Below are positions 27,661-43,661 of a stretch of DNA of 64,000 nucleotides, piece by piece; position 1 is the first letter of the stretch, and each line of letters begins with the position of its first letter. A model generated the notes under the pieces. The model saw only the letters and a program-made list of their open reading frames with translations. It searched no databases and was not told where the DNA came from. The translations under genes were made by a program, and so were the position numbers. The stretch comes from Gammaproteobacteria bacterium (GTDB taxonomy: Bacteria > Pseudomonadota > Gammaproteobacteria > HyVt-429). The DNA lies in contig JAADGI010000015.1 of NCBI GenBank assembly GCA_013152415.1, forward strand, positions 186,001 to 250,000. The letters run 5' to 3'.

Positions 27661-27966
27661 GCGTTTGCCTCATATTGCCGTTGTTCATGTTGGGTGGCTG
27701 GTCGTGCGGAAATCATCCGCACATTGGCCGCGTTGGCGCTGATCTCCAGACTAAGTATGGATCACCAATAATAATTTGCTGTTCTCCGCCTGTCCTATTG
27801 TGATCCAGCGTTCCTCAAACTCGCTGCTTTCCTCGTCTGGGATAGAAATCATTAAGGGATCACGAAATACCGTTGCCGCCAGATCAAAACTGACCCCATG
27901 TTTGCGCTGGTTACTGGTGGCCTTGGTTGCATCCCATTCAAAGTGATAATCAAAAGCGGTTGTCAT
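27657..27966 (-). pseudogene. brnT: BrnT-type ribonuclease toxin, frameshifted
   Basis: Starts at 27966 with MTTAFDYHFEWDATKATSNQ and RKHGVSFDLAATVFRD, the BrnT signature, and continues to ENSKLLLVIHT where a TAG stops it at 71 residues. Shifting by one base resumes the family C-terminus: NVRMISARPATQHEQRQYEA to a TGA overlapping brnA. One T inserted or two bases lost at the CATACTTAG site (27750s) explains this. The missing segment holds conserved RNase residues, so toxin is likely dead. Sequencing error is possible. Confidence 0.75.
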
Positions 27967-28163
27967 TTTACGCTATCCAGTCGCCGAGAATCGGTTGGCA
28001 TCGTGCTTGAGGATCAGGCTTTCCAGTACCGCCTTGGCGACCCTCTTCTCTTCCGGTGCGAATCGGGTCAAGGCTTCAAATTTGAAGCAGCAGGTCATCA
28101 TCCGGCCCGTGAATCTGGGGACAGTATACCCATTTACCTCGCCTATAACTAAAGGGGTTGCTC

Positions 28164-28296
28164 ATGGGTTCGCCCAAACAAATCCAGGAGATTCTGTTTG
28201 ATAAACTGGAACTCCCGGTGCTACAAAAAACCCCCAAGGGTGCCCCTGGAGGTGGATATTGCAACCGGCAACAACTGGAATCAGGCCCATCCCTGA
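28164..28296 (+). pseudogene. polA: polA fragment 2 (internal-deletion fusion)
   Basis: From ATGGGTTCGCCC to CCCAAGGGTGCCCC it matches polA 19714 onward (codons [21 protein letters not shown]); after GTGCCCC it matches the last 16 codons of polA ([18 protein letters not shown], stop). GTGCCCC occurs at both places in intact polA (19788 region and 20710 region), in different phases, so about 920 bp were lost by recombination over this 7-bp microhomology, giving a frameshifted join. Most differences from intact polA are synonymous. The stop is TGA, not TAG. Confidence 0.9.
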
Positions 28297-28312
28297 AATT
28301 AGCACCCCGTGA

Positions 28313-28334
28313 GGTCAGAGCCGCAGCTCTGACC
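28313..28334. terminator. Hairpin after polA fragment 2
   Basis: GGTCAGAGC and GCTCTGACC form a perfect 9-bp stem with loop CGCA. It lies 17 bp after the fragment's stop codon. The T-run is weak. It might be a former transcription terminator of the donor polA, or of the opposing gene at 28445. Confidence 0.45.
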
Positions 28335-28444
28335 CTGACAACCCTAGCTAAACAAAAGACAAGACCTAACCCTATTTTTTCCCCGATGAAAATACGACAA
28401 CTATTCCAGCTACGAACAATAAGTTAGCAGCTTTTTCTGGAAAT

Positions 28445-28717
28445 CTAGTTCGTCCTATCATCATTTTTGGTATCGGAAGTTTTGGTATCGTCAGCATCCG
28501 CATCTTTCTTCATGGCGTCAGTGCATTTTTTGCGATTTTTATCACAATTAATACCGTTGCTTTGAGCGCCGGCCGGAAAATACCAACCTACACCATCAAC
28601 GACGGTATACGCGCCATTGCCTTCTGTAGTAACAATTTCTACTGGGTGTTTCGTAGCTAAAACACCCATCGCTGAAAGACTTAACATCACGAACAAATAG
28701 CATTTGGCTCGCATCAT
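28445..28717 (-). CDS. Small exported protein of unknown function
   Basis: 90 residues from the ATG at 28717, with AAGGAG seven bases upstream; a longer frame to 28762 lacks a site. Signal peptide (CYLFVMLSLSAMGVLA), then a short domain ending NCDKNRKKCTDAMKK and a charged, probably disordered tail DADADDTKTSDTKNDD. Two cysteines may pair. Belongs to a set of small exported proteins in this inserted region, without close similarity to the others. Confidence 0.65.
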   Translation of the reverse strand: MMRAKCYLFVMLSLSAMGVLATKHPVEIVTTEGNGAYTVVDGVGWYFPAGAQSNGINCDKNRKKCTDAMKKDADADDTKTSDTKNDDRTN

Positions 28718-28875
28718 TTTATTTCTCCTTAATTTCAATTTATGAGCTTTGCTCGATATCAACCGCTACTCGGTTATACTGCACCGGTTGACGCTCAGCT
28801 TAGCATGGCCCACATGAACAAGGACTGAACGGATTTGAACTTGTCCAATATGTTGAAACTCTTGACACACTCTAT

Positions 28876-30417
28876 TCACTTACCGGTTCTCAAAGACAGC
28901 GGTCTGCTCTCACCAATGACGCTACCCTTACTGTCCACCGCCAATACTCTCATGTAGACGGTGCCGGTTTTCAGGTAATCACCCACCACATCACTGAGCT
29001 GTGCGCTTTGCTTGCTGCCATCGACTACCATACCGGACACCGGTGCCTGATCGCCCGGTGGCGAAGCAAAGAATTCAATATGATAGGTCTTGGCACCTTT
29101 GATACGCTGCCATTCAAAACGGGTATCCAGCGCCAAGGTGGCGCCCGTAACAGGGGATATCACTGTCATACTTTTAGGTGGTCCTGCCGGCTGCTCAGTG
29201 GGGGTAATGTAATAACGCAACTCCGGCATCTCTTTGCCTATAAAGGGCTTGCTGATACGCAGGCGCACAATATACAAACCAGGCATGCGGGTAGGTAGTG
29301 CCGGGCTCAGGATATCCGTCTGATCGGGACCACTTAGGTAGTCCCGCACCAAGCGCAAGGTACGGAAGACCGGTCGGCCAGCGGTACTCGTAGGCAGCGC
29401 AACTTCCCAGCGCGCCTCAAGTAAACCACGGCCAGCATACGTGACTTCCGCCAGCGCCTTTATCGTTGCACCCTTGTCGGCTACCTCTTGCACCGAGCCG
29501 TCTTCAAATTGCAGCCCAACACGACCCAGCGAAAATGAGGCTGCAGCACCGGAGGTGATTTTGAATACCTTGATGCCCTCAACTGTGGTCACACCATCGC
29601 TAAAAATACGTGTGTAGAATATCTCATCCACACCCGCCGCCTGAGCCGCAAAAATTACGCTGGTGGGTATCGGCACTCTCTCGGAAATACTCAGGGTATT
29701 ACCACTGAATCTTCCTGTAACACCCCTCGACACACCACCTAGAGGCAAACCACCAGGTGTGGTAAACGTACCGCCGGGTGACACCACCGTGCACCCCACC
29801 TCCTTATCACACGTCGGTCCCGAAGTGCTTGTATTCAAAACCCAGCGCACACTTGCCCGCTGGGCACGTTGGCCGGAGATGGGTATGGTTCTACCGGAAC
29901 GACCATCCTTACCACCACCATTGTCAATCACAAGATCACCGCCCGAGCCGCCGCCCGAGCTACCACCGTTGCTGCCCGAGACACCCCCCGAAGACACAAA
30001 TCGGATATTGACCGTAGCCGACTTGTTACCACCACCCTCAGAATCATTAAATATTCGAGTATATCGAACACCCGAATAACCACTGGCAACCGCAGATGCA
30101 ACGGGTATGGTAACGGTCTCGGAGAATTTACACAGGCTACTGGATGGGCAGTTCACCTTTTTAGAGAAACTCTTGGTAATCACCTTAATGACCGCACCAC
30201 CGGGTGAGCGTATGACCGCCTTCTTGGAACCAACGATGGCACCGGTAGCGTTGTTAACGACCCCCCATCTTATGGACACACTCTTGCTGCTGGCAGAATC
30301 CGATACACTGATGAATGATGGCGATACCACTACCCCGGTGACTGCGGCCCAAACACCTTGTACATGCAAGGCAAGCAGCGCAACGCTGAATGTACTTACA
30401 ATCACTTTATTATTCAT
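28876..30417 (-). CDS. Large exported protein with duplicated domain
   Basis: 513 residues with signal peptide (cleavage near VWAAV, residue 25). Two related domains are visible: residues ~26-145 and ~178-300, both with an ETVTIPV/ERVPIPT strand and then VRYTRIFNDS/IFYTRIFSDG. Between them runs a Gly/Ser linker (NGGSSGGGSGG). A third part (300-410) and a C-terminal fibronectin-like segment (ATLALDTRFEWQRIKGAKTY) follow. The whole looks like an extracellular beta-sandwich protein. It starts nine bases after the outer-membrane barrel gene stop, with AAGGAGAAATT before the ATG, so the two form an operon. Possibly a partner displayed by the barrel. Confidence 0.75.
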   Translation of the reverse strand: MNNKVIVSTFSVALLALHVQGVWAAVTGVVVSPSFISVSDSASSKSVSIRWGVVNNATGAIVGSKKAVIRSPGGAVIKVITKSFSKKVNCPSSSLCKFSETVTIPVASAVASGYSGVRYTRIFNDSEGGGNKSATVNIRFVSSGGVSGSNGGSSGGGSGGDLVIDNGGGKDGRSGRTIPISGQRAQRASVRWVLNTSTSGPTCDKEVGCTVVSPGGTFTTPGGLPLGGVSRGVTGRFSGNTLSISERVPIPTSVIFAAQAAGVDEIFYTRIFSDGVTTVEGIKVFKITSGAAASFSLGRVGLQFEDGSVQEVADKGATIKALAEVTYAGRGLLEARWEVALPTSTAGRPVFRTLRLVRDYLSGPDQTDILSPALPTRMPGLYIVRLRISKPFIGKEMPELRYYITPTEQPAGPPKSMTVISPVTGATLALDTRFEWQRIKGAKTYHIEFFASPPGDQAPVSGMVVDGSKQSAQLSDVVGDYLKTGTVYMRVLAVDSKGSVIGESRPLSLRTGK

Positions 30418-30426
30418 AATTTCTCC

Positions 30427-32502
30427 TTAGTTCCCCACCGGGAATCGATAGGGCCAGCTTAAGGTGGCACCGACAAAGACCTGATTCTGGTTCAAATCGG
30501 CGTCGTCGAAGACCTTGTCATTGAAGCTTTGGTGAGACACTTGCAACCAAAATGACAGGCCCGGCTTATTACTACGCGCCGGTATGGCCTGCCAATTCAG
30601 ATTGGCGCTCAATATATTGTCCCGAGTACTTTCGGAATTATCCAACAAGCGGGTGTCGCTGATTTCATAATCCAGATTGAGGTCTAACCGACTCGGAATA
30701 AGCTCTATATCACCCGTCAGCCCAACGATCACCGTACTGCTGTCCGGCTCACCTGTTGTCGAAATCAGGTTGTATTGGGCTCGACTACTGAGGCTAAACC
30801 GGTCACTGATGGAGACGTCCGCCTCCAGCTCAAACAACTGGTTTTTGGTGTCCGGATTAAAATCGGAAAAGTCATCTAACCAACCAACCTTATAACGAAC
30901 CAGACCATTCCAACGCGAATGATTAAAGCGGGCGAAAACGGATATGTCCTGGATACGATTGTCTATATCGAGACCACCGGGGTTAGGCTGATTGACGGTC
31001 TCCTCTTTGGTGCGCCGAAGCTCTACATTGTAGGTGGGCTGGCCATACCAGGGTTCTTTGTCCATATCGCCTGTGGACACCTTTGGTTTATAGCGAGTAG
31101 CAAGCTTGTACACATCTTTGCGCCGGGTGGGCAGGCTCTTGGTTCCATCCACATTGTCCTCTTCACTAGCCAAATAAAGACTGGTGGTGAGGCCCACCCA
31201 TTGGGCCTTAGCAACAAAAGCCACCAACTCCCGGTCAACAGCAAGTGCAGCGTTGGCGGGACTCTCAAATTGATCACCCACTTTCAAATACTGCAATCCA
31301 AGAGATGTCTTCACCGGACTGCCGGCGATGCGATATTCGGTCTTCGGTCGATAACGCACCAGCAGATTAACGGCATCATCATTAGTGTCAGCCAACCCAT
31401 TCGTTGCATTTTGCCGCGCACGAGCATACTCACCCGCAATATAGAGCCGTTTGTCCATCACCGTGCTGCGAGCCGCAACACTCCAAGCATTGGTGTCCGT
31501 CTTCAGTCCACCACTGATGGTGGCAAAATCATCGCTGTTGGCGGTTTTACCAGAAAGATAAGTGGTGGTTAGCGACAATTTCTCGGGCGTACCAATAAAA
31601 GGTTGAAAAGTAATGCCGCCGCCGAGGGTGCGATTCTCCGGATCACTAAACCCCAGCCCCTCGGACAGCCCAACGACACGGCCAGTACGCATGGCGAATA
31701 CATCCGCCATAAGGCGCTTGTCCTTACTCTTAAACCGTGATGATATACCGCGACGACGAAAACGTTTGATTAACAAACCTTCCGGTTCCAGCCTGTGGTC
31801 ACCTATATTAAAACCTAGGTTTTGGTAATTACCTTGAACCTGAAATTTACCGATATCAAATTCCCTTCGACCTGCAGGGGTCAACTCAGGCAGACTGTTG
31901 TATATGAAGTTGGCCTTGGCCTTCACCTGCCAATCCTTACCAGATACCCTGCCTTTGGTCTTGATAGCACCATCGGCCTGGGCTCGATGTTCTGGTAAAT
32001 CGTTTTCATCGTAACCACGGTCACTTGCACGCTGCTTGATATTGAGGGTGGCCTTGCTGGAAAACATCATCTCCCGCACGGCATCGGACTGCCTCACCTC
32101 AAATGGCCAGCTACCCCGCTCCAGGGTCTTAGCGCCAACCTTCTCCAGCAGAGCTATCATATGCTGACCGTATTTGAGGGGCCTGCCCGGTTCCAGTATC
32201 AGTTGCCTGCCTTCGATACGCATCACCTGGGTCATATCGACCTTGTCCAACACCAACCGCAGTTGACCGATTTTGCTAGCATCGAAGTCATCCGGCAGAA
32301 AAATCCGTAACGGGTCTCGCGGCTGACGTACGGAATCGACTTCTGGCGCGAATTGCGCCTGCCATTGGCCGCTATCGCCATAGACCGCCGGAGCGGTGAG
32401 TAGCCCCGCAGATACCAATGCAACGCACACCGTTCGCAAGGAAAACCCTTGATTGGCAGAAAATATTTGTACAATCGTTTCACTAACCCGTTTCTTTTTC
32501 AT
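30427..32502 (-). CDS. Predicted outer-membrane beta-barrel protein
   Basis: 691 residues. Signal segment (TVCVALVSAGLLTAPAVYG) after a basic N-terminal extension of some 24 residues. Residues 50-160 form a soluble domain (LRIFLPDDFDASKIGQLRLV). From residue 170 to the end there are about 24 alternating amphipathic strands with aromatic girdles (DKRLYIAGEYARARQNA, NGLVRYKVGWLDDFSDF, RFSLSSRAQYNLIST), and the last strand (NQVFVGATLSWPYRF) ends close to the C-terminus. This is typical of a large porin-like barrel. No TonB plug domain. First gene of an operon with the duplicated-domain exported protein. Family unknown to me. Confidence 0.75.
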   Translation of the reverse strand: MKKKRVSETIVQIFSANQGFSLRTVCVALVSAGLLTAPAVYGDSGQWQAQFAPEVDSVRQPRDPLRIFLPDDFDASKIGQLRLVLDKVDMTQVMRIEGRQLILEPGRPLKYGQHMIALLEKVGAKTLERGSWPFEVRQSDAVREMMFSSKATLNIKQRASDRGYDENDLPEHRAQADGAIKTKGRVSGKDWQVKAKANFIYNSLPELTPAGRREFDIGKFQVQGNYQNLGFNIGDHRLEPEGLLIKRFRRRGISSRFKSKDKRLMADVFAMRTGRVVGLSEGLGFSDPENRTLGGGITFQPFIGTPEKLSLTTTYLSGKTANSDDFATISGGLKTDTNAWSVAARSTVMDKRLYIAGEYARARQNATNGLADTNDDAVNLLVRYRPKTEYRIAGSPVKTSLGLQYLKVGDQFESPANAALAVDRELVAFVAKAQWVGLTTSLYLASEEDNVDGTKSLPTRRKDVYKLATRYKPKVSTGDMDKEPWYGQPTYNVELRRTKEETVNQPNPGGLDIDNRIQDISVFARFNHSRWNGLVRYKVGWLDDFSDFNPDTKNQLFELEADVSISDRFSLSSRAQYNLISTTGEPDSSTVIVGLTGDIELIPSRLDLNLDYEISDTRLLDNSESTRDNILSANLNWQAIPARSNKPGLSFWLQVSHQSFNDKVFDDADLNQNQVFVGATLSWPYRFPVGN

Positions 32503-32576
32503 TCCTCAGAGGCTCCCTAAAAAATCATAGGCAAAAGACGCTAACGCACTAAAATAATTTGAGCTCGTGCAGGCCA

Positions 32577-32592
32577 AACTAACGTTAGTTTC
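32577..32592. promoter_or_regulatory. 16-bp palindrome upstream of barrel gene
   Basis: AAACTAACGTTAGTTT is a perfect 16-bp palindrome 75 bp upstream of the barrel gene's start codon. It is positioned like an operator near a promoter. No known regulator consensus is claimed. Confidence 0.45.
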
Positions 32593-32686
32593 AAGCAGTT
32601 ATAAATATAATTATATGCTGGCGTTATTATGTATTGCAGCCGTCCAACTGGATTTCTTTCACCGGCAACTATTTTACACGTACACA

Positions 32687-32702
32687 CTGAACCGCAACTG
32701 AA
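32687..32702. promoter_or_regulatory. Direct-repeat element, copy 1 (CTGAA, 11-bp period)
   Basis: CTGAACCGCAACTGAA carries CTGAA twice with an 11-bp period, the form in which OmpR/PhoP/PmrA-type response regulators bind (two head-to-tail monomers on one DNA face). An almost identical element is at 33853-33868. It lies 185 bp upstream of the barrel operon start. A link with the regulator gene at 34293 is inferred. Confidence 0.5.
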
Positions 32703-33063
32703 TAGAGTCTTCACGGAAATTGAATTATACAGCTTGTAGAAGCAGTTTACCTTTTTCGTCACCCTTAACCCTGCGCTGTTTATGTAATAGGTTTTTGGCA
32801 CCAACACCCACTCGACTGCTGACCTTACATCAAATGCACTGCAACATAGTGGGAAATTATAATCGGTGGTGACATACAAACAATTTACAGCCTGCAATAT
32901 CTTTAGCCTTACAGAAACTTCCATATTTCATAGAGCCTTTAACTCATTCACCATTAGGATGGCCTCGTAAGGAAGGCCCCGTACAATTTCACCGGAAGGG
33001 CACAAATGAGAATACAGAGGGGCAGAGGCTGATAGCAGCCCCTCTGCATCCCTTATAGATTTA

Positions 33064-33321
33064 TTAACACCGCACCCCAGAGTTGGGATCATCGCACGGT
33101 CCACTGCCATCGGACTTGAATTCTGCTGCGTCCTTATTCAGTATTTTTGCCTTCTTTTTAGCTTCCTTTTTAGATCCCGCGCGAACTGTTTTGTCACCAT
33201 TGGTGACAACCCAACCCACCATCGGCACCTCTTTTACGACCCACTCTGCCATCACCTGGGGGGCAACAAACACCATCACTAATGCAGCAAAAAGCACACT
33301 ATGGATAATTTTTCGCATCAT
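33064..33321 (-). CDS. Small exported protein with C-terminal CDDPxSGVxC motif (A)
   Basis: 85 residues from ATG 33321 with GAGGAG six bases upstream. Signal peptide (cleavage near VMAEW, residue 26), then a short core VKEVPMVGWVVTNGDKTVRA, a lysine-rich helix (KKEAKKKAKILNKDAAEF) and the end GPCDDPNSGVRC. The same plan and tail occur in the adjacent gene at 33373 (GLCDDPRSGVVC), so the two are paralogues. The two end cysteines may pair with each other or serve as a recognition or attachment tail. Confidence 0.7.
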   Translation of the reverse strand: MMRKIIHSVLFAALVMVFVAPQVMAEWVVKEVPMVGWVVTNGDKTVRAGSKKEAKKKAKILNKDAAEFKSDGSGPCDDPNSGVRC

Positions 33322-33372
33322 CAATTTCTCCTCGATATGACTATAGATATGGATAAATCCGGCATGGGCTCA

Positions 33373-33717
33373 TCAACAAACAACGCCGGATCGGGGATCA
33401 TCACAGAGCCCATCCGGGTCGGCCTTAACCCCCTTTGACTCCAATTTGTTGAATTTCTTGGCCGCCTTCTCCGCTTTCTTATAAGTTTTAAAATAAATTT
33501 TGTCCCCGGGATTCCGGCCATTCCTGATATAAGGCCCACCCGAATCGCTGCCCGCACTCCATATCGCCATCTGGATGACGGAAGTCTCTTTTGGTGCCGG
33601 CTGCGTCATTGCTTGTTGCCAATCAATTTGATTTACAGTCATACTCGACATCGCAGGTAAGGCGGCAAACATCAAGCCAGCCACCAAAAGTAGGGTCGTA
33701 CAATTTGCTCGTTTCAT
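33373..33717 (-). CDS. Small exported protein with C-terminal CDDPxSGVxC motif (B)
   Basis: 114 residues. Signal peptide MKRANCTTLLLVAGLMFAAL, a central stretch SGGPYIRNGRNPGDKIYFKT, a lysine-rich helix (YKKAEKAAKKFNKLESKG) and the end DGLCDDPRSGVVC. Clearly related to the 33064 protein in the helix and tail. Upstream region is shared with the divergent PepSY gene and holds a CRP-like site and a regulator-type direct repeat. Confidence 0.7.
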   Translation of the reverse strand: MKRANCTTLLLVAGLMFAALPAMSSMTVNQIDWQQAMTQPAPKETSVIQMAIWSAGSDSGGPYIRNGRNPGDKIYFKTYKKAEKAAKKFNKLESKGVKADPDGLCDDPRSGVVC

Positions 33718-33852
33718 TATCTGTCTCCTTATTCTCCACTGAAAATATCGGCAATCAATACGATAACGATCAGCCGCAGACCTTCCTTAGCGGTAACTGT
33801 GTCTCCTTAGCAACCATAATACGGCTGTGCGCATCATCATGCCCCAAACAAG

Positions 33853-33868
33853 CTGAACCGCAGCTGAA
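33853..33868. promoter_or_regulatory. Direct-repeat element, copy 2 (CTGAA, 11-bp period)
   Basis: CTGAACCGCAGCTGAA differs from copy 1 (32687-32702) at a single base. It stands in the divergent region between the small exported gene (33717) and the PepSY/response regulator operon (33952). An operator of the local OmpR-family regulator, including autoregulation, is the natural hypothesis. Confidence 0.5.
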
Positions 33869-33894
33869 CAATGGTTAGCCTGTTCTTCAACAAA

Positions 33895-33910
33895 TGTGAT
33901 ATACATCACA
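33895..33910. promoter_or_regulatory. CRP/Vfr-like site
   Basis: TGTGATATACATCACA is a perfect TGTGA-N6-TCACA palindrome, the consensus of CRP and Vfr. It lies 42 bp before the PepSY gene's start codon and downstream of the direct-repeat element in the same divergent region. It suggests cAMP control of the regulator operon, provided the host makes a CRP-type protein. Confidence 0.6.
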
Positions 33911-33951
33911 CTATCATTGATTCCTAAATGTCACCTTAAATATATGCCAAA

Positions 33952-34281
33952 ATGCCCGTGAGTCCGACATTCAAGTTGCTGCTAGCGGTCCTGGCCACAC
34001 TGTTTGGTCCACAGCCGGTTTCCGCCTCCATGGAGCCTGTGAGGCACCTGCCACAAAGCACCCATATACCTTTGCTACTGGCTGCCACGGAAACCCTGGG
34101 CGGCGAGGAGTTTACGGCCGAGAACGCAGCTTCGGTGGTACGAAAACGTTCTCGTGGACGGGTATTATCCGTGGAAACCGTTAAGCAGGAAGGACAGCTT
34201 TTTTACGAGGTCAAGGTGTTATTGAAAAGTGGCGAGATTCGCATCTACCATGTCGATACCACCACCGGGGGAATTCAGTAA
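33952..34281 (+). CDS. PepSY-domain exported protein
   Basis: 109 residues: signal peptide (cleavage near VSASME), linker, and a PepSY-like domain (VVRKRSRGRVLSVETVKQEG, YEVKVLLKSGEIRIYHVDTT) from 60 to 109. PepSY proteins often sit next to PhoP/PhoQ-like pairs and may inhibit proteases or sense envelope cues. It is 11 bp before the response regulator gene, so probably the first gene of that operon. ATG at 33952 is the only good start. Confidence 0.85.
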   Translation: MPVSPTFKLLLAVLATLFGPQPVSASMEPVRHLPQSTHIPLLLAATETLGGEEFTAENAASVVRKRSRGRVLSVETVKQEGQLFYEVKVLLKSGEIRIYHVDTTTGGIQ

Positions 34282-34292
34282 GGTTTGCGGCT

Positions 34293-34973
34293 ATGCGTGT
34301 TCTGATTGTCGAGGACGAAGAAAACCTGCTGTCACAGATACGCTCACGACTGGAAGAAGACGCTTACCAGACCGAAGGGTCCACCAATGGCAAGGATGGA
34401 TTGTACCTCGCCTCTGAATATCCATTTGATGCGGCCATTATTGACCTGGGGTTACCACTACTCAATGGCATAGACCTGATCACAAAACTACGTGAACAAG
34501 GCAGCCGTATCCCGATCTTGATTCTCACTGCACGCGGCAATTGGCGAGATAAAGTCGAAGGCCTGGAGGCCGGTGCCGATGACTACCTGACCAAACCTTT
34601 CCACATGGAAGAACTTCAAGCACGCCTGCGTGCATTAGTCAGACGTGCCGCAGGCAGTGGCCAAAACCGCATACGCTTTGGCCCCTGTGACCTCGACCTC
34701 GCCTCCCAACAAGTGAGCATGGACGGTACACAAATCGAACTGACTGCATTCGAATATCGCCTGCTGGAGTATCTCATGCGCCGCCCTGGCAAAGTGGTGT
34801 CCAAAAGAGAGTTGGTCGACTACCTCTACACAGAAGATGACGAACGCGACAGCAATGTTGTGGAGGTCATGATCGGTCGCCTGCGGCGAAAGTTAGACCC
34901 TGAAAATGTCTTGCGGCCCCTCGAGACCCTTCGCGGTCGCGGCTACCGTTTTGCTCTGGGCGATAACGATTAG
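34293..34973 (+). CDS. OmpR-family response regulator
   Basis: 226 residues. Receiver domain 1-115 with acidic pocket (EDEEN near 8-12), phospho-acceptor D in AAIIDLGLPLLNG (D51) and K101 in YLTKPFH. Winged-helix DNA-binding domain 125-220, recognition region SNVVEVMIGRLRRKLDPENV and RGRGYRFAL. Subgroup resembles PhoP/QseB. Followed after one base by the kinase gene. Direct repeats with 11-bp period nearby are plausible targets. Confidence 0.93.
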   Translation: MRVLIVEDEENLLSQIRSRLEEDAYQTEGSTNGKDGLYLASEYPFDAAIIDLGLPLLNGIDLITKLREQGSRIPILILTARGNWRDKVEGLEAGADDYLTKPFHMEELQARLRALVRRAAGSGQNRIRFGPCDLDLASQQVSMDGTQIELTAFEYRLLEYLMRRPGKVVSKRELVDYLYTEDDERDSNVVEVMIGRLRRKLDPENVLRPLETLRGRGYRFALGDND

Positions 34974-34974
34974 C

Positions 34975-36318
34975 ATGGGGTCACTGGCTACCCGCATTGG
35001 GTTGAGCGCAACAATCGTACTGGGCATTTTCATCGTAGTAACAGGCATCAGCCTGGATCGAGCCTTCCATGAAAGCGCCCGGTCTGTAGAAAGCAGCCGC
35101 TTGCTCAGCCAGATATATCTACTGATGGCCGCAGCCAAGGTCAACCGCAAGGGACAATTATCCATGCCGGACAATCTTCAAGAAGCCCGGTTCAATCTAC
35201 CGGATTCTGGGCTGTACGGTCGCATTATCGATGCAAACGGAAATACAGTCTGGCAGTCCAGCTCAAGCATGGGTATCACCTTGCCCGCCACATCAGCATT
35301 AGCCGCAGGCAAAAAAATATTTTCTGCTCGTCAAGATGCTGGCCATACCTATTTTAGTTCCGATTTTGGCGTGCGCTGGGCAGTAGACAAAAATAATTAT
35401 CCTTTCACCTTTACGGTAATAGAAGACAGTACAGCGTACCAAGCACAGCTCAGCCATTATCGCCAGAGTCTATGGATGTGGCTAGGTATCATGGCAGTAC
35501 TCCTACTCCTTGCCCAAGCCATCGTGCTGCGTTGGTGGTTGCGGCCACTGCGTAGAGTCGTTCGAGAACTGAACTTCATTGACGATGGTCGACAAGACAT
35601 AATAGAAGGTGAGTACCCGACGGAATTAAAACAAATAACAGACCGCCTCAACGCCCTCATTCGCCACGAGCGTGCCCGCCAGACCCGATCCCGAAATGCC
35701 CTGGCCGACCTGGCCCACAGCCTCAAGACACCACTTGCGGTGCTACGTGGTTCAATTGGTGAGGGCAAGTTTAACGAAAAGAGTGTTCGTCTTATGGATG
35801 AACAAATAAACCAAATGGATCGCACCGTACGACACCAGCTACAAAGAGTAGAGACTGGTGAGGCAGCTATCGTCATGCATTCAATAGATGCTGCACTTTT
35901 GATCAGGAAACTGGTCTCGGTGCTGGAAAAAGTCTACCGGGACAAAAACATACACTGTGCAAAAAAAATGAGTCTCAATCTTAAAGTTCTGTGCGACGAA
36001 CGAGACTTTATGGAGCTGGCCGGCAACCTATTGGACAACGCCTTCAAATACTGTCGCAGCAAGGTGGCCCTTTCTGCTGACAGGGAAAACGGCCATATCG
36101 CTATTGATATCGAGGATGATGGACCAGGTTTTGAAGTAGATGAAATCAAACATATTCTACAGCGGGGTGGACGGCTGGATCAGTCCAAGCCCGGCCAAGG
36201 CATTGGTTTAACGGTAGCCAAAGAAATTATTGATGCTTACCGAGGCCGATTGGAGCTAAAACGTTCCGTCCTGGGCGGTGCCCACATACGCGTTTTGATT
36301 CCAGAACACCTACGCTAA
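34975..36318 (+). CDS. PhoQ-type sensor histidine kinase
   Basis: 447 residues from ATG 34975, one base after the regulator stop; an earlier in-frame start at 34906 lies within the regulator gene and is rejected. Two membrane helices (residues ~8-30 and ~165-185) enclose a periplasmic sensor of about 135 residues. HAMP-like part, then H-box ALADLAHSLKTPLAVLRGS (the PhoQ-like form), N-box GNLLDNAFKYC, and G-boxes DDGPGF and GQGIGLTVAKEI. All catalytic parts are present. It partners with the upstream regulator. Confidence 0.92.
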   Translation: MGSLATRIGLSATIVLGIFIVVTGISLDRAFHESARSVESSRLLSQIYLLMAAAKVNRKGQLSMPDNLQEARFNLPDSGLYGRIIDANGNTVWQSSSSMGITLPATSALAAGKKIFSARQDAGHTYFSSDFGVRWAVDKNNYPFTFTVIEDSTAYQAQLSHYRQSLWMWLGIMAVLLLLAQAIVLRWWLRPLRRVVRELNFIDDGRQDIIEGEYPTELKQITDRLNALIRHERARQTRSRNALADLAHSLKTPLAVLRGSIGEGKFNEKSVRLMDEQINQMDRTVRHQLQRVETGEAAIVMHSIDAALLIRKLVSVLEKVYRDKNIHCAKKMSLNLKVLCDERDFMELAGNLLDNAFKYCRSKVALSADRENGHIAIDIEDDGPGFEVDEIKHILQRGGRLDQSKPGQGIGLTVAKEIIDAYRGRLELKRSVLGGAHIRVLIPEHLR

Positions 36319-36593
36319 TAACCCAATCATTGCAAAAAAAACCGTGCTTCATGATAGTTTCCACTCTGTATCGACTGTGCGAATTAACCCTGTCCTCTCT
36401 TTTCCTGGCTTGGCATGACAATGTCCTTGAGCTTTACATCCCCCATTTCCTGACGCAGATAGATGACGACTTTTCGTGCCTCATTCCCTCTTTGTGTAGT
36501 GGACTGGACATGGGCCATAGCGTGGATTATCAAGTATAATGAAGCAAGCGACTTGATCCCTTTTAATCTTTTTCATGTTCCACGGAGAAAAAT

Positions 36594-36854
36594 GTGAAAA
36601 CATTATTTTTAGCATTACTTCTGGCCTTTAGCTTTCCTGCCTTTGCTGGAGATGAAGTTTATTCTCAAGGCACAGGAAATTATCAAAAGGACAAGGACGG
36701 AAGCTCAAGAGAGATCGTTAGAGTTAAGGTTCGTATCGGTGGAGAAACTACAGATTTGGGAGGTGCTTTTAAAGGCGGCCCCCGTGAATCGGAACTTCAC
36801 GAGGAAGGACAGAAAAAAATCGACGATGCAAATAACACAAACGATGGCAAGTAA
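36594..36854 (+). CDS. Small exported protein of unknown function
   Basis: 86 residues from a GTG at 36594 with CGGAG upstream. Signal peptide (MKTLFLALLLAFSFPAFAG), then a charged polar chain with no cysteine (EVYSQGTGNYQKDKDGSSRE). No recognised family. Similar in style to other small exported proteins of this region but not clearly homologous. Confidence 0.6.
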   Translation: MKTLFLALLLAFSFPAFAGDEVYSQGTGNYQKDKDGSSREIVRVKVRIGGETTDLGGAFKGGPRESELHEEGQKKIDDANNTNDGK

Positions 36855-36920
36855 GAACATCAATACAGGTTTTCTCACAGCAAAAGAGTCACTTACTTAA
36901 TCTGATATGGTGCTTTCTGG

Positions 36921-36954
36921 TCCCTTCTACCCCAGGGAGAAGGTTAGGATGAGG
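36921..36954. repeat. CCCTCTCCC-type dispersed repeat, copy 1
   Basis: CCCTTCTACCCCAGGGAGAA, continuing to a GGATGAGGG end, is a worn copy of a common hairpin repeat (CCCTCTCCC...GGGAGAGGG then TTAGGGTGAGGG). A better copy in the other orientation is at 63923-63956. Confidence 0.5.
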
Positions 36955-36989
36955 GAAGTAGATACCTAGACCCCTTATCATCCTATCAT

Positions 36990-37145
36990 CAACGCCTACA
37001 AGAAAAATTGTCCGATGAGAACTTTGTCAGCCGTGCCCCGACCGAAGTAGCAGACAAAGAAAGACGGCGAGCAACGGATTTGGGAAACGACCTGGCGAAT
37101 CTAATCGCACAAAGAGACAAAGTTTCCAAGCTACAAAATGAATAA
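36990..37145 (+). pseudogene. valS: valS 3' end fragment
   Basis: 52 codons with a stop encode QRLQEKLSDENFVSRAPTEV, then ADKERRRATDLGNDLANLIA and QRDKVSKLQNE. This is the C-terminal coiled-coil tail of valyl-tRNA synthetase (KLSNENFVxRAPxEVVxKER in intact enzymes). The catalytic part is absent, so it is a detached 3' end. An intact valS is presumably elsewhere. It joins the polA, lysA and tRNA-Phe fragments as another housekeeping-gene relic in accessory DNA. Confidence 0.8.
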
Positions 37146-37212
37146 GGCACGATTGGTTTCGTTACGCTGGCCCCTGCTTCCGCAAAGGCAATTATAACGC
37201 GGTGATTTGATC

Positions 37213-37893
37213 CTACCTTCCCAAAAAACCTATGGATTCAATTAATTTATAGCTAATTCCAGCCTTGTGCAGTAAATCCGGTTTATTTGCTGCAGATAGC
37301 TTAGGGTTGATAGTGGCGAATGCCAGAATAGAATGTCTATCTTTAGGGTTCAAAATTACAACCAAGCGAACGTATAAGAGCCCGATAGTAGGGTCTTCAA
37401 ACTGCCCGACCCCCACCACGCCATCGGCACCGTTTATTTTTGTTTGTGCTATACCGAGTAATTTTGCATTGAGATAGCCTTTTGACGCATCGGCAAACGC
37501 TTGATTAGACAAGAGGTGTGCAGCCGTCTTTATGCGCAAAACGGGATCACCCATGCCTATCTGAACTGGAACCAGACGGATATTTTCTATTATCTGTTTT
37601 TCTTTTGTGACAAAACTAATCTTTAATAAAGTCGTATCACTCGGGCCACCTACTTTTGGGTCATAGTAATTGAGAAACTTTTTGCTCACTGGGACCTGAA
37701 TTCTAAAAGGCGCTGCTACAGACTTTCTGTATTTCTTGGCGAAAGCCGAATCAATATTTATGGTTTTCGATACAGTTAATCCCTTAACAGAAAATGGGGT
37801 AAACGAGACGCTCCCAACGCCAGTCGCCGCACTGACCACCGTCCCAACCATCAATCCAACTAAAAGTAGAGAAAATCGAACAATATTTGGCAT
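37213..37893 (-). CDS. Exported protein of unknown function
   Basis: 226 residues from ATG 37893, with GGAG six bases upstream (the longer frame to 37920 is not needed). Signal peptide (cleavage near VVSAAT, residue 24). Mature part is beta-rich: VGSVSFTPFSVKGLTVSKTI, LNYYDPKVGG, FEDPTIGLLYVRLVVILNPK. No cysteines. No family recognised. Opposed to the valS fragment, followed by the remains of relBE. Confidence 0.65.
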   Translation of the reverse strand: MPNIVRFSLLLVGLMVGTVVSAATGVGSVSFTPFSVKGLTVSKTINIDSAFAKKYRKSVAAPFRIQVPVSKKFLNYYDPKVGGPSDTTLLKISFVTKEKQIIENIRLVPVQIGMGDPVLRIKTAAHLLSNQAFADASKGYLNAKLLGIAQTKINGADGVVGVGQFEDPTIGLLYVRLVVILNPKDRHSILAFATINPKLSAANKPDLLHKAGISYKLIESIGFLGR

Positions 37894-37927
37894 TGCTATC
37901 TCCGTATCATTGATTGGCACAAATCCA

Positions 37928-37964
37928 GGATACCCATCAGCCCACCCCGGTCAATAGCCTAAAC
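37928..37964. repeat. 37-bp dispersed repeat, copy 1
   Basis: This stretch (core CCCCGGTCAATAGC) matches 63352-63388 at 33 of 37 positions. It covers the end of the relE remnant. Both copies border decayed genes, which suggests a short mobile or recombination-borne segment. Confidence 0.55.
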
Positions 37965-38265
37965 TGATCCCTTGATTTGTTTCCTGACACAGATACGTAC
38001 GGATACGTGACGCATTTTTCGTGTCCCATTGCCTTTTTGCAGTCCTTTTGTCTGGCCCCATTTTTCTGTGCCAATTAATCGTAAATATCTTTTCGGTGCG
38101 CCACAATCCCGTGAGGTCGCGGGGCAATGATTTACCAAAACGGCGGGGATCTTCATCAGTGGCAATGCGCTTACGGAAATAACGTAATATTTCTTGCTGG
38201 GCCTGGCGGTCGAGCTTGCGAAGCTCCTTGGTAGCCGCATCGTCAAATTCAACGATCCAGATCAA
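37951..38265 (-). pseudogene. relE: RelE-type toxin, C-terminal half degenerate
   Basis: The first 55 codons (IVEFDDAATKELRKLDRQAQ, then RKRIATDEDPRRFGKSLPRD and LTGLWR) are standard RelE/ParE-type mRNA interferase. After LWR the family continues YRVGxYRLIC, but here the frame reads TEKIFTINWHRK, while the neighbouring phase reads KRYLRLIG, so a frameshift lies at about 38100. The catalytic arginines of the second half are not recoverable. Starts with TTG overlapping the antitoxin remnant. Confidence 0.65.
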
Positions 38266-38450
38266 GGTCTTGTTCTAGTTCGTCCAGCGTCCAGCACCTA
38301 CCGGGGTTCTCTAGGCGATTGATTGCCAGGTATTTGTCTTCCAGCTCACCCAAGTGCTCAAGAAAGGCTTCTTTGGCATACAAAGGTCTGGTGCGTCCGG
38401 TTCTGGCCGTCAGGCGGGCCTCAATCCCTTCAGGTAGAGTCTAATAGCAA
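38249..38450 (-). pseudogene. relB: RelB-type antitoxin, frameshifted
   Basis: On the minus strand the phase ending at 38249 reads PEGIEARLTARTGRTRPLYA, KEAFLEHLGELEDKYLAINR and WTLDELEQDLDLDR, the helical part of RelB/DinJ-like antitoxins. The beginning (LAIRL) is in another phase, so a frameshift separates the RHH N-terminus. It overlaps relE as in intact pairs. Both partners have decayed. Confidence 0.6.
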
Positions 38451-38509
38451 GCGCTCCAGCCTTCCTCAATATACGTGTATTAATAGCATAGCAGTATCAC
38501 GCGCGCACA

Positions 38510-38603
38510 ATGCGCGACACGGCCCGTGACCAGGGCTATGTGAAGACCGTATTCGGACGGCGGCTCTATGCCTCCGAAATCAAGTCCAGTAATCAGGCCC
38601 GCC
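38510..38603 (+). pseudogene. polA: polA fragment 3 (codons 777-807)
   Basis: 94 bp aligned to polA 20389-20482 without gaps, 12 differences, of which four codons are missense (E to K, V to A, P to S, A to S). It ends at CAGGCCCGCC, within two bases of where polA fragment 1 ends (20480). It lies immediately before the candidate sRNA and engB, where intact polA stands in related genomes. Confidence 0.9.
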
Positions 38604-38752
38604 CTAAAATTTACACAAAACTTGCGTTAATTTCAGGGTGATTGGTGCTTTTAACGAACAAAAGGATCGATTTTATCAAATCTTTCCCCTTTCACGGCAC
38701 AATTACTGCTGTCGACCCGGAACTTAGGGGGCCAAATTGCGTCATACTGGGT

Positions 38753-38871
38753 AGACGGTATGGAATACCGTCTGAAGCCCGCTCCTCCTCCCTGAGCGGG
38801 TGGTGCCGGCAGGGCCGGTACCGAAGCACTTGCCCCGGATTTTTCCATCCCTCAATCCGGGGCATTTTTTT
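38753..38871 (+). ncRNA. Candidate small RNA between polA relic and engB (Spot 42/ErsA position)
   Basis: Four consecutive hairpins. SL1 38753-38773: AGACGGTAT/ATACCGTCT, loop GGA. SL2 38778-38800: CCCGCTC/GAGCGGG with the loop CTCCTCCCT, a C-rich sequence able to pair with GGAGG-type ribosome binding sites. SL3 38802-38822: GGTGCCGGC/GCCGGTACC. SL4 is a terminator (38831-38871). There is no open frame. In Escherichia coli spf (Spot 42), and in Pseudomonas ErsA, occupy the gap between polA and engB on the polA strand; this element has that place and direction. The 5' end is unknown and may lie upstream, to about 38640. No sequence identity to either RNA is claimed. Confidence 0.65.
38831..38871 (+). 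terminator. Rho-independent terminator of the candidate sRNA
   Basis: TGCCCCGGATT (38831-38841) pairs with AATCCGGGGCA (38854-38864), an 11-bp stem, followed by seven Ts. It is oriented on the plus strand and so does not serve the opposing engB. No protein gene ends upstream of it on the plus strand, which is what points to an RNA gene. Confidence 0.9.
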
Positions 38872-38900: not shown

Positions 38901-39509
38901 TCACCCTGTATCCCAAGCCAGCCAAGCCTCTAAGCGGTCGCTGACCTCCTCTACACCCTGACGCTTGGGGGCCGAAAATAGTTGGGCGCAGGCCCCAGGA
39001 AAATCCCTTTCCAGGGTCTTTTGCAGGCCCAGCAATGCCACCTGGGCCTGGGAACGACTGAGTTTATCGGCCTTGGTAAGCAATATGTGAACCGGCATCT
39101 GGACCTGACCACACCAGGCCAGCATGCGCTGATCAAATTCCTTCAGAGGGTGGCGACTGTCCACGATCAGCACCAGACCCTGCAGACTCTGACGGGACTG
39201 GAGATAGCGCTCCAGGGTCTGGTCCCAATGCCGGCGCATGGCATGGGAGACCTTGGCGTAACCATAGCCTGGCAGATCCACCAAGCGTCGCTCACCCTCA
39301 TCCAGAACAAAAAAATTGATCTGCTGGGTGCGCCCTGGGGTCTTGCTGATGCGGGCCAGGGAGCGGCGTCCGGTGATGGCATTGAGGGCGCTGGATTTAC
39401 CCACATTGGAACGCCCGGCGAAGGCCACCTCCCAACCCTCATCCTCTGGACATTGGGTCAGCTTGTGGGCTCCCAGAATAAAACGCGGATTTGCAGTTAA
39501 CAAAGACAT
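38901..39509 (-). CDS. engB: Ribosome biogenesis GTPase EngB/YihA
   Basis: 202 residues. GTPase boxes: G1 GRSNVGKSS, G3 DLPGYG, G4 TKADK, G5 FSAPK. The family is essential in many bacteria for assembly of the 50S subunit. Length fits. Strand opposite to polA and the candidate sRNA, the same arrangement as in Pseudomonas and E. coli. ATG at 39509. Confidence 0.97.
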   Translation of the reverse strand: MSLLTANPRFILGAHKLTQCPEDEGWEVAFAGRSNVGKSSALNAITGRRSLARISKTPGRTQQINFFVLDEGERRLVDLPGYGYAKVSHAMRRHWDQTLERYLQSRQSLQGLVLIVDSRHPLKEFDQRMLAWCGQVQMPVHILLTKADKLSRSQAQVALLGLQKTLERDFPGACAQLFSAPKRQGVEEVSDRLEAWLAWDTG

Positions 39510-39713
39510 ACCGCTACACTGTGACGGAATTACCCTCGCGGAACAAGGTGGCCCGTCATCGGGCTAAATTGACCTCCTAGAGGCAGATGTTATATAAGGT
39601 GTGCCCCGATCGATCCGCGATGAATGGGTTATCCAGACCCTGTACCCCGGTTATTGAACACACCCTCAATTGGGCCCCAATGGCGCTTAGCGAATAGGGT
39701 TAGGAGATTGTTT

Positions 39714-40334
39714 ATGAAATGCTTAGTAAAATTGGCCCTGGCTGGACTTAGCCTGGGCATGAGTTTAACCGTAGCCCATGCCTACAATACGGGCGACATT
39801 GAAGCCGGGCGCGCCAGATCCGCCGCCTGTGCCGGTTGTCACGGCCCCGAGGGCAAAAGTATCAACCCCCAGTGGCCCAACCTCGCCGCCCAGGTCCCCG
39901 GCTATATCGCCAAGCAGCTTGCCGATTTTAAATCGGGCGTCCGGCCCAACCCTATCATGGCAGGACAAGCTGCAACCTTGAGCGAACAAGATATGGCCAA
40001 CCTGGACGCATTCTATTCCAGCCTGAAGCCCAGCATCGCCGCGACTACTGAGAAGAAGCTTACTAAACAGGGCGAGAAAATCTTTCGTGGTGGTAACAGC
40101 AAGACCGGCGTATCGGCCTGCATGAGTTGCCACGGTCCTTCCGGCAATGGCATCCCCCCCCGCTTCCCCCGGGTTGCTGGCCAGAACAGCGCCTATGCCC
40201 AGGCCCAACTCATGGCCTTCAAATCCGCCAAGCGCAGTAAGAACGAGCAAGTCATGAGCCGCATTGCCTTTCGCATGTCAGAGCAAGAAATTGAGGCAGT
40301 CGCGCAATATATGCAGTACCTGGACGTAAAGTAG
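39714..40334 (+). CDS. Diheme cytochrome c4
   Basis: 206 residues from ATG 39714, GGAG in TAGGAG seven bases upstream; the longer frame to 39624 is upstream leader. Signal peptide (cleavage near AHAYNT). Two c-type heme sites: CAGCH and CMSCH, each with a distal methionine (PIMAGQ and the MSRIAFRM stretch). Periplasmic electron carrier to cytochrome oxidase. Neighbouring engB and the system II maturation genes match its role; it is a substrate of ResB/CcsA. Confidence 0.96.
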   Translation: MKCLVKLALAGLSLGMSLTVAHAYNTGDIEAGRARSAACAGCHGPEGKSINPQWPNLAAQVPGYIAKQLADFKSGVRPNPIMAGQAATLSEQDMANLDAFYSSLKPSIAATTEKKLTKQGEKIFRGGNSKTGVSACMSCHGPSGNGIPPRFPRVAGQNSAYAQAQLMAFKSAKRSKNEQVMSRIAFRMSEQEIEAVAQYMQYLDVK

Positions 40335-40447
40335 CCGGTTGTTTTAGCTCACATCAAAAATGAGGGGGTGGCGGCAGCGTCATCCCCTTTTTTGTCCGCC
40401 AGGATTTTATATTTCAGCTCAAACACGTATAACACTTTCTGTTCTCC

Positions 40448-42457
40448 ATGGTAGCCGCCAGCAAAACCAAGCGAAACCAACACAGCACCAGCAGACGGCT
40501 GCTGGAGTTCTTTGGCTCCATGAACTTGGCTATCACCTTGCTGGTGGTCATTGCCATTGCCTCGGTCATCGGTACTGTCCTACAACAGAACCAACCCTAT
40601 AACGATTACATTATCAAGTTCGGTCCGTTCTGGTTTGAGGTCTTCGACAAACTGCAGCTCTATGATGTCTACCATGCATTATGGTTCTTGGTTATTCTCG
40701 CCTTCCTGGTCATCTCTACCAGCACCTGTATCTATCGCAATACCCCCACCATGTTGCGGGAGATGCGTCAGTGGCGTGAACACATTAGCCGCAAATCTCT
40801 GGCTGCCTTTCATCTGAAGGCCGAATGGCAAATACCCAGCAACACCGTCGTACCTATAGAGGGTTTAGAGCAGGCGCTGACCAACCGGGGATATAAGGTC
40901 AAACGCCATGTTCAGGATACCACCACCACTTTGGCGGCCAAACGGGGAGTCTATAATCGAATTGGCTACATCCTCACCCATGCGGCCATTGTCGTCATAT
41001 GCATCGGTGGATTACTGGATGGCAATATTCCCATCATGCTAAGCGAGCGCCTCGGAAATATCCAGGTCGAAACTCGGGATGTGTCCGTCTCCAAGATGGA
41101 TAAAAAAAGTTTTCTCCCTGTGGAGAATCCTTCCTACCGGGGGAATATCACCATCCCGGAGAACCAGGCCGCCAGTTTTATATTTCTCAGTGTACGAGAC
41201 GGTGTATTGGTACAACATCTACCCTTTACTGTAGAAGTAAAAGACTTTCGAATCACCCACTACGACAATGGCCAACCCAAATCGTATGAGAGTGACCTGG
41301 TCATCTATGACGACGACCTCGACCAACCCATAGAACAAACTATTTCCGTCAATCATCCGCTCATTCATAAGGGTATTACGATCTATCAAGCCAGCTTTGG
41401 TGATGGTGGTTCAAAACTCAAACTCCGTGCCTGGCCCCTGGGTGCATCCCAAAATAAGAGTTTCACGCTCCAGGGTACGGTTAAGCGCAACACAGATATC
41501 ACCATTGGTGATGAAAAAATTGTGCTGGAGATTGGAGACTTCAGAAAATTCAATATCCACAACCTGGCCCAGGAAGCGGGCGCCAAAGATTTCAAAAATG
41601 TTGGCCCGAGTTTTCAGTTCAAGCTGCGCCGTAGCGATGGTGACGCCCTGGAATACAACAATTACATGTCCCCGATTAAGGTGGAAGGCCGTTTGTTTAT
41701 GCTCAGTGGAGTGCGCAGTACTCCCGGGGAAGCATTCAACTATATCCACCTGCCGGTGGGACCGGATGGATCACTGAAACGCTTTCTGCGGTTTCTGGAG
41801 CTGGTGCACAGCGATGCTGCCATGCTGAAGGTTGCCAAAGGTATCGCCGATATTACCCTGTCTGTAGCCAGCAACAAGGACCCCAAGGTGCGTCAGCAGA
41901 TTATTGACAGGACCGTCGAGTTAGGACGTCTATTTGCCCGTGGGGGTTTTGCCGCCATCGAAAAGGCTGTCGACCGAAGCTTTGCCAAGGAAAAACGGAT
42001 GGAAGGGTTTCGCGCCTACATGAATATCATTCGAGTGCAGCTGGCCGCCCTGTTTGAACGTACCTTGCGTGAGGCCGGTGAATACAAAAATGATCAACTG
42101 ACTCCACGCCAGGAACAATTTTACGAGGATGCGGTGACTGTACTGACCGCCCTGCCCCACTATGGATCCCCCATTTATTTACAACTCACGGACTTTGAGC
42201 ATATCGAGGCCACAGGCCTGGAGATCACCCGATCCCCAGGTAAGTATATCGTCTACCTGGGTTGCACACTGTTGTTGGTCGGTGTATTTATGCTGTTCTA
42301 CATCCACCCACGCCGGGTCTGGGTAATGGTGACAAAGACCGGCCAAGGTGCGACAGTACTATGCGGTGGCAGCGATCACCGAAAGTCACCAGATTTTGAG
42401 CGGGAATTTGGGATCATCCGATTGGCCCTGAGCGCCCGATTAAAGCCGCTCGTATGA
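40448..42457 (+). CDS. resB: Cytochrome c biogenesis protein ResB (CcsB)
   Basis: 669 residues. Membrane helices near 28-50, 78-98, 178-198 and 600-620, with a large periplasmic domain between the last two. ATTLAAKRG and GYILTHAAIVVICIGG are typical of the ResB family. With CcsA it forms the system II heme-delivery and ligation complex on the periplasmic side of the membrane. Followed 31 bp later by ccsA, an operon. Presence of system II in place of CcmA-I is a clue to the lineage. Confidence 0.95.
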   Translation: MVAASKTKRNQHSTSRRLLEFFGSMNLAITLLVVIAIASVIGTVLQQNQPYNDYIIKFGPFWFEVFDKLQLYDVYHALWFLVILAFLVISTSTCIYRNTPTMLREMRQWREHISRKSLAAFHLKAEWQIPSNTVVPIEGLEQALTNRGYKVKRHVQDTTTTLAAKRGVYNRIGYILTHAAIVVICIGGLLDGNIPIMLSERLGNIQVETRDVSVSKMDKKSFLPVENPSYRGNITIPENQAASFIFLSVRDGVLVQHLPFTVEVKDFRITHYDNGQPKSYESDLVIYDDDLDQPIEQTISVNHPLIHKGITIYQASFGDGGSKLKLRAWPLGASQNKSFTLQGTVKRNTDITIGDEKIVLEIGDFRKFNIHNLAQEAGAKDFKNVGPSFQFKLRRSDGDALEYNNYMSPIKVEGRLFMLSGVRSTPGEAFNYIHLPVGPDGSLKRFLRFLELVHSDAAMLKVAKGIADITLSVASNKDPKVRQQIIDRTVELGRLFARGGFAAIEKAVDRSFAKEKRMEGFRAYMNIIRVQLAALFERTLREAGEYKNDQLTPRQEQFYEDAVTVLTALPHYGSPIYLQLTDFEHIEATGLEITRSPGKYIVYLGCTLLLVGVFMLFYIHPRRVWVMVTKTGQGATVLCGGSDHRKSPDFEREFGIIRLALSARLKPLV

Positions 42458-42488
42458 AGGCCATAGCCAACGATTGTGAGGTTTTAGC

Positions 42489-43661
42489 ATGAGTACCCCC
42501 CAAGAAGTTATGGACGATAGTGAATTTGCAGTACTGCCGTTCTGGAAAAAACTTACCCTGACAGATGGCCTATGGGCAATAATCATGGCCCTGGGGACGG
42601 TACTTACCTACATCAATTATTCCGGTTACATGGATGCCTACGAGGTCATGATCCTGGTGGGCACCTTAATCTCCATAGTGTCGCTGGGCTGGCGCTGGCG
42701 CCCAACCCAGATCCTGGTCCTGGTCGTGAGCGCCCTGTCTCTGTTCGCAATGTGGCTCTACGCGGGCGACATTGCCAGGGGTGAACAAAGCTTTTTTCTA
42801 AAATTCTTGTTTTCCAGCCAGTCTGCAGTGATGTGGATGAGCGCCCTGTTTGTGATGGCTACCGTAGCCTACTTCTGGGGACTGACCACCCGCTCAGATT
42901 TCATCAACCGGGTCGCCAGCGGCATGACTTGGTGCGCCGCAGCTATGGGTCTGGTGGGCCTCATGGTACGCTGGCTGGAGTCTTATCTGATCAACCCGGA
43001 CTACGGCCACATCCCGGTAAGCAACCTCTACGAAGTATTCATTCTGTTTTCGATCGTCACCGCCCTGCTCTACCTCTACTACGAACAACGCAGCGGGACC
43101 AAGACCCTGGGTGGGTTTGTGCTGCTCATTATCAGCGCCGCTGTGGGCTTTTTATTGTGGTACGCCTTCGGTAAGGAGGCCCATATCATCCAGCCCCTGG
43201 TACCTGCACTACAATCCTATTGGATGAAAATCCATGTCCCCGCCAACTTTATCGGCTATGGCTGCTTTGCCATAGCCGCCATGCTGGGTGTTGCCCTGTT
43301 ACTGATCGGGGACAGGAGCAAGCGGGGTTTCTTCGCCTCCCGACTACCCGATGTGGCTGTCATTGATGATCTCCAGTACAAGGCTATTGCCCTGGGCTTT
43401 GCCTTTTTCACCCTGGCCACCATCCTCGGTGCCCTGTGGGCGGCAGAGGCCTGGGGCAGTTACTGGTCCTGGGACCCCAAGGAGACCTGGGCCCTGATCG
43501 TATGGCTGAACTATGCGGCCTGGTTGCACATGCGTCTCACCAAGGGCTGGCGTGGGGCAACCATGGCCTGGTGGTCGGTGATCGGCCTGTTTGTGACCAT
43601 CTTTGCCTTTTTAGGGGTCAACATGTTTCTGTCTGGCCTACATTCCTACGGCGAACTGTAG
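42489..43661 (+). CDS. ccsA: Cytochrome c biogenesis protein CcsA (ResC)
   Basis: 390 residues, about eight to ten helices. The tryptophan-rich WWD heme-handling motif is present (AWGSYWSWDPKETWALI), and conserved periplasmic histidines in HIPVSNLYEV, and LKMH-like MKIHVPANFIGYG. Transports heme across the membrane and ligates it to apocytochrome with ResB. Probable main client is cytochrome c4, encoded just upstream. GTGAGGTTTTAGC leader provides the ribosome binding site. Confidence 0.95.
   Translation: MSTPQEVMDDSEFAVLPFWKKLTLTDGLWAIIMALGTVLTYINYSGYMDAYEVMILVGTLISIVSLGWRWRPTQILVLVVSALSLFAMWLYAGDIARGEQSFFLKFLFSSQSAVMWMSALFVMATVAYFWGLTTRSDFINRVASGMTWCAAAMGLVGLMVRWLESYLINPDYGHIPVSNLYEVFILFSIVTALLYLYYEQRSGTKTLGGFVLLIISAAVGFLLWYAFGKEAHIIQPLVPALQSYWMKIHVPANFIGYGCFAIAAMLGVALLLIGDRSKRGFFASRLPDVAVIDDLQYKAIALGFAFFTLATILGALWAAEAWGSYWSWDPKETWALIVWLNYAAWLHMRLTKGWRGATMAWWSVIGLFVTIFAFLGVNMFLSGLHSYGEL

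Follow-up and report, generated by a model that had tools for sequence, protein, structure and literature searches.

We identify at positions 38753-38871 (+) of a 64,000-nt stretch of gammaproteobacterial DNA (genome G000, GCA_013152415.1, contig JAADGI010000015.1, positions 186,001 to 250,000; hereafter the window) what is, judging from its sequence, a genuine gene for a trans-acting small RNA (sRNA). The RNA appears to be the local form of a widespread gammaproteobacterial and betaproteobacterial family of the polA-engB locus, with anti-hemB as a member and sX13 as a more distant one; databases name this family only narrowly, under these two entries. We consider it probable that the RNA is a sigmaE-driven sRNA induced by envelope stress, whose loop would mask G-rich ribosome-binding sites (RBS) in the manner of sX13.

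Structure of the sRNA gene

Folding of 38753-38871 (+) gave a minimum free energy of -61.8 kcal/mol compared with -40.9 ± 3.7 kcal/mol for dinucleotide shuffles (z -5.7, 0/200), and confirmed the architecture described in the earlier note: four hairpins in a row, of which the second presents CUCCUCCCU in its loop, with a terminator stem of 11 bp and a run of seven Ts. When the 64 kb of the window were scanned for hairpins that have a C-rich loop and lie close to a terminator, only this site and one weak site on the opposite strand came up. The features of the gene and its surroundings are the following.

18061-20766 (+): polA, intact, 18 kb upstream of the sRNA
38513-38602 (+): polA relic (tblastn, 63% over 30 aa, E 7e-6)
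38719-38746 (+): predicted sigmaE/AlgU-type promoter, with -35 GGAACTT at 38719-38725, N16, and -10 TCATA at 38742-38746
38753-38871 (+): anti-hemB/sX13-like sRNA gene, 119 nt (R2 and Rfam RF02837 matches)
38753-38773 (+): hairpin 1 at the RNA 5' end, 9 bp, all 9 pairs with double changes
38777-38801 (+): hairpin 2, with the anti-Shine-Dalgarno-like loop CUCCUCCCU at 38785-38793 (fold, covariation)
38802-38822 (+): hairpin 3, variable; loop AGG here, C-rich in many relatives
38831-38864 (+): intrinsic terminator stem, 11 pairs, containing GCCCCGG...CCGGGGC
38865-38871 (+): terminator tail of seven Ts (whole terminator 38831-38871)
38901-39509 (-): engB/yihA-type GTPase gene, head-on neighbor (Pfam MMR_HSR1, 71.6 bits)

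Conservation and covariation of the family

The sRNA is present at 91% identity in a genome of the same genus (G001) and can be aligned from hairpin 2 onward in two genomes of the same family. A covariance model built from only three sequences, all of the window's own family (R1), recovered the RNA, in most cases at E values of 1e-5 to 1e-14, in nearly all of the remaining loci that the anti-hemB model had supplied, and a refined family model (R2) found it in 166/369 genomes of the class at E<=1e-5. On the window, which is among its training sequences, R2 scored 96.7 bits (E 1.1e-19) at 38753-38871, and the next-best place reached 14.4 bits.

In the covariance-model alignment, which, being fitted to the model, is biased in its favor, double changes were seen in 34/34 pairs, 92.8% of cells paired compared with 63.4% after shuffling, double-change cells numbered 637 compared with 173 after shuffling and 55-143 when the partner was slid by one to three columns, and the covariation score was 0.529 versus 0.130. 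Pair counts were taken from this alignment; a MAFFT and RNAalifold alignment misplaced hairpins 1-3. In helix 2, pairing reached 97.8% and each of the 6 pairs showed double changes, and the CCUCCC of loop 2 was near-invariant while its stem varied. Hairpins 1-3 covaried as well as the terminator did, and members folded individually mostly gave the same hairpins, many of them with several C-rich loops. The earlier note had proposed a candidate sRNA with a C-rich anti-RBS loop, for which a conserved loop and compensatory stem changes in relatives would speak; both were found, and strongly. A genome collection of 257 Gb contains the 22-mer CCGCTCCTCCTCCCTGAGCGGG 25 times, always in the same hairpin and with a terminator after it; all 25 places have engB, cytochrome c and/or polA alongside, and at almost every one the promoter is present in strict or near-strict form.

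Some loci carry tandem arrays of two to five sRNA copies (L088, L089, L090, L083, L084, L056, and L043). Several of the copies in L089 lack the C-rich loop in hairpin 2 and retain a C-rich loop 3. A metagenome-assembled genome labeled Nitrospira (L179, VRUB01000038.1) bears such a locus of the gammaproteobacterial type, engB and cytochrome c included; a binning or labeling error is the probable cause.

Genomic context

The place and direction of the RNA had been likened to those of Spot 42 and ErsA. This holds in the window for engB, to which the sRNA lies head-on, and for polA by way of the relic and of relatives: only the relic is adjacent here, and in two same-family genomes (G002 and G003) the sRNA lies directly downstream of polA. 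We read the relic as the mark of an ancestral polA-sRNA-engB order, and the E. coli annotation (polA-spf-yihA) has the same arrangement. Among the 102 fetched loci, polA was upstream on the same strand in 56/98 with enough flank, and engB was head-on in 59/91. The best R2 match adjoined engB in 50 of the 64 genomes checked, head-on in 49, and the best match of the anti-hemB model lay within 630 bp of engB in 52/66 genomes, again head-on in 49. The sRNA also occurs away from engB in some genomes.

Fragments of polA lie at 27377-27481, 28164-28290, and 38513-38602 of the window, which suggests that in this lineage the region downstream of polA (20767-38602, approximately 18 kb) has undergone partial duplication or insertion more than once. 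After engB, genes for a two-domain cytochrome c, ResB, and CcsA-type cytochrome c assembly run divergently at 39624-43661; many relatives, including some that lack engB there, also have a cytochrome c gene next to the sRNA. A 104-aa frame at 37951-38265 (-) looks by eye like a RelE/HigB-type toxin, with no Pfam match at E<=0.001.

A sigmaE-type promoter

Upstream of the RNA lies GGAACTT-N16-TCATA, which fits the known sigmaE/AlgU consensus and would place the transcription start at approximately 38752-38754. The earlier note makes no mention of this promoter. The motif alone is at chance level in 64 kb (0.88 expected), so the argument for it rests on place and conservation. GGAACTT-N16/17-TCNNA is conserved upstream of the RNA in the window's family, in G001-G003, with a variant -35 in G003. 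The strict motif stood 46-64 nt before hairpin 2 in 39/55 training loci against 0.1-0.26 expected, 16/55 having no strict match. Among independent RNAs, found by R2 and outside the promoter definition, it was present at the fixed distance in 30/41 loci against 0.17 expected, and most of the others had near variants. Most extra tandem copies keep a sigmaE-type promoter of their own. The genome also has rpoE (315.9 bits), with GAACTT-N16-TCTTT in its upstream region, and hfq (101.7 bits). A generic scan found no sigma70 promoter at the sRNA, as one would predict for a sigmaE-type promoter. A sigma54 promoter, GGCAC-N5-TGC at 38696-38709, was spotted by eye and rejected, as it is not conserved in relatives.

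Relationship to anti-hemB

At gathering thresholds, Rfam reports nothing at 38753-38871. The anti-hemB model (RF02837) nevertheless aligns end to end with the window RNA (model 1-81) at 47.7 bits and E 1.4e-10, below its cut-off of 49.5, and passes that cut-off in G001 (51.5 bits), G002 (50.2 bits), and G003 (62.0 bits) from the same family. It is above cut-off in 21/369 genomes of the class and matches in 203 genomes at E<=0.01. In the reverse direction, R2 recovers anti-hemB at 51-69 bits. Both RNAs have the C-rich hairpin CCCGCTYCTCCTCCCTGAGCGGG, then a further hairpin and the terminator, in the same order; the window RNA has hairpin 1, which the Rfam model lacks. Anti-hemB, also known as Burkholderia RNA 7 or ncS04, is a 105-nt transcript in B. 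cenocepacia, as determined by RACE and Northern blot, and is bound by Hfq (PMC5688073).

The form behind the Rfam model is wired differently. In a family that we took as Burkholderiaceae because 47/61 of its genomes pass the anti-hemB cut-off (G110), neither the sigmaE motif nor engB within 1.5 kb was found at any of 30 anti-hemB loci; hence the window form and this one differ in wiring, and sigmaE control is not universal in the family. Many of the Burkholderiaceae-type copies (L200-L228) have TAAA/TATAAT-like -10 boxes in place of the motif, and a promoter switch in this branch is possible. The same observations, together with the report that the level of ncS04 changed under none of the conditions tested in B. 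cenocepacia (PMC5688073), could be taken to mean that the window RNA too is a constitutive, sigma70-dependent sRNA of the anti-hemB type and its sigmaE-like motif incidental. Given the empty sigma70 scan here, the motif at its fixed distance in the independent loci, and its retention by most tandem copies, we regard this as unlikely and prefer sigmaE control for the window RNA.

Relationship to sX13, ErsA, and Spot 42

The sX13 model (RF02232) reached 22.2 bits on the window against a cut-off of 50. We took as Xanthomonadaceae-type a set of genomes in which RF02232 is above cut-off in 26/31, and R2 matched all 20 sX13 loci fetched, at the same coordinates and on the same strand (E 8e-7 to 0.008); its matches at unexpected places in this test had E values of 8e-4 and worse. 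As R2 finds sX13 at its own coordinates, it seems that anti-hemB and sX13 branch from a single family, of which sX13 is probably a diverged member. The sX13 loci have polA directly upstream in 19/20, and 11/20 share, at a constant distance, a GAAC[CT][AC]T-like -35 with N16 and TC; engB was not found beside the fetched sX13 loci. The window RNA and sX13 share C-rich loops and a GCCCCG-type terminator, whereas the loop of sX13 is of the CCCC type, and in the copies that score best, which are Xanthomonas-like, the promoter has diverged.

ErsA of Pseudomonas aeruginosa lies at the polA-engB locus under the control of sigma22, the sigmaE homolog (PMC8575079, PMC7565897). The window RNA resembles it in lying at engB behind a sigmaE-type promoter, a likeness of sequence motif, and differs from it in structure, ErsA being described as two stem-loops and a U-rich unstructured domain (PMC8575079). 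ErsA had no match in the Rfam scans. A further locus (L169, approximately 1296-1390, engB-minus orientation) has a sigmaE-type promoter next to engB and, behind this promoter, a short U-rich RNA, more like ErsA and Spot 42 than the C-rich family, and possibly an intermediate.

Spot 42 is under cAMP-CRP control and shares with the family the polA-sRNA-engB order and orientation, a likeness of locus. We tried and rejected it as a member: the Spot 42 model (RF00021) had no match in the window and was found in 0/369 genomes of the class, and R2 scored spf at 20.7 bits, mostly in the terminator and within the range of GC-rich terminators. The terminator of E. coli spf (L257 4413-4508), GCCCCAGUC...GACUGGGGC-UUUUUU, resembles the GCCCCGG...CCGGGGC of the family, which could be chance. 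The statement in the earlier note that the sequence differs from known regulators thus stands with respect to Spot 42 and falls more generally, in view of the near-threshold anti-hemB match and of sX13 as a probable diverged relative. The alphaproteobacterial ar14 or CCUCCUCCC (cuckoo-type) RNAs have the same CCUCCUCCC loop at other loci; the ar14 model (RF02344) reached 24.7 bits on the window against a cut-off of 58.8.

Proposed function

Transcription, sigmaE dependence, and loop pairing in the organism of the window are predictions from sequence. Envelope stress would free RpoE (sigmaE), which would transcribe the gene from GGAACTT-N16-TCATA, starting at approximately 38753 as the conserved sequence indicates. 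The 119-nt RNA would fold into three hairpins and the terminator, leaving CUCCUCCCU single-stranded in loop 2, a fold for which covariation argues strongly. The loop may then pair with GGAGG-type ribosome-binding or start-site stretches of selected mRNAs and lower their translation, and Hfq may assist through the U-tail. Such pairing has been shown experimentally for sX13: its repression depends on the C-rich loops and on G-rich motifs near the start sites of mRNAs, and is Hfq-independent (PMC3771888). By extension from the sX13 mechanism and the ncS04 data, masking of GGAGG-type sites under envelope stress is the most likely action of the window RNA. The target prediction with the loop as seed, as the earlier note had advised, yielded no candidate: a perfect 9-nt complement just before an ATG occurs at only two sites in the genome, and since neither lies at a plausible gene start, no target is supported.

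The C-rich loops might instead act as a sponge or decoy that titrates another RNA or a protein. The loop is short and extremely conserved, many members carry several such loops, and some genomes have 4-5 tandem copies, as dosage-acting RNAs can. We nevertheless find a sponge quite improbable: sX13 represses reporters through pairing of its C-rich loop with a G-rich RBS (PMC3771888), the sequence has no array of GGA loops for CsrA, and no partner is known. That the RNA is not an independent gene but derives from polA or engB, as a terminator or 3' UTR product, which its position between polA-derived sequence and engB and its strong terminal hairpin might suggest, is very improbable, considering that it has its own conserved promoter, persists with polA 18 kb away, occurs away from engB and in tandem, and covaries in hairpins 1-3 as in the terminator. 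A dual-function RNA with a small peptide, after the example of E. coli spf and its spfP, is scarcely credible, for the ATG frame at 38760-38795 (11 codons, MEYRLKPAPPP) is broken by a 2-nt deletion in a same-genus genome, the family alignment has no conserved start codon, and a 100-aa TTG frame spanning the region is mechanical, so that 38753-38871 holds no conserved protein frame, as had been claimed.

Implications

Anti-hemB, sX13, and the window RNA appear to belong to a single family that spans the class, shares its locus, and in most lineages has a promoter of the sigmaE type. In the literature on engB/yihA and RpoE-dependent sRNAs we found no description of this family; subscription papers were outside the search, and an earlier description is possible. 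More tentatively, and as a conjecture that we think less likely than not, a single ancient polA-engB sRNA gene, originally sigmaE-driven and with an anti-Shine-Dalgarno loop, may have given rise to anti-hemB, sX13, ErsA, and even Spot 42; place and terminator would have been kept, while the pairing region changed and the sigmaE promoter gave way to one under sigma70 or CRP. The family bears on the question, left open in PMC3771888, of whether structurally related sRNAs exist at the polA locus of other bacteria. For many unannotated genes it would predict both the signal (envelope stress) and the action (RBS masking), and it may offer an example of an sRNA gene whose controlling sigma factor has changed from one lineage to another.
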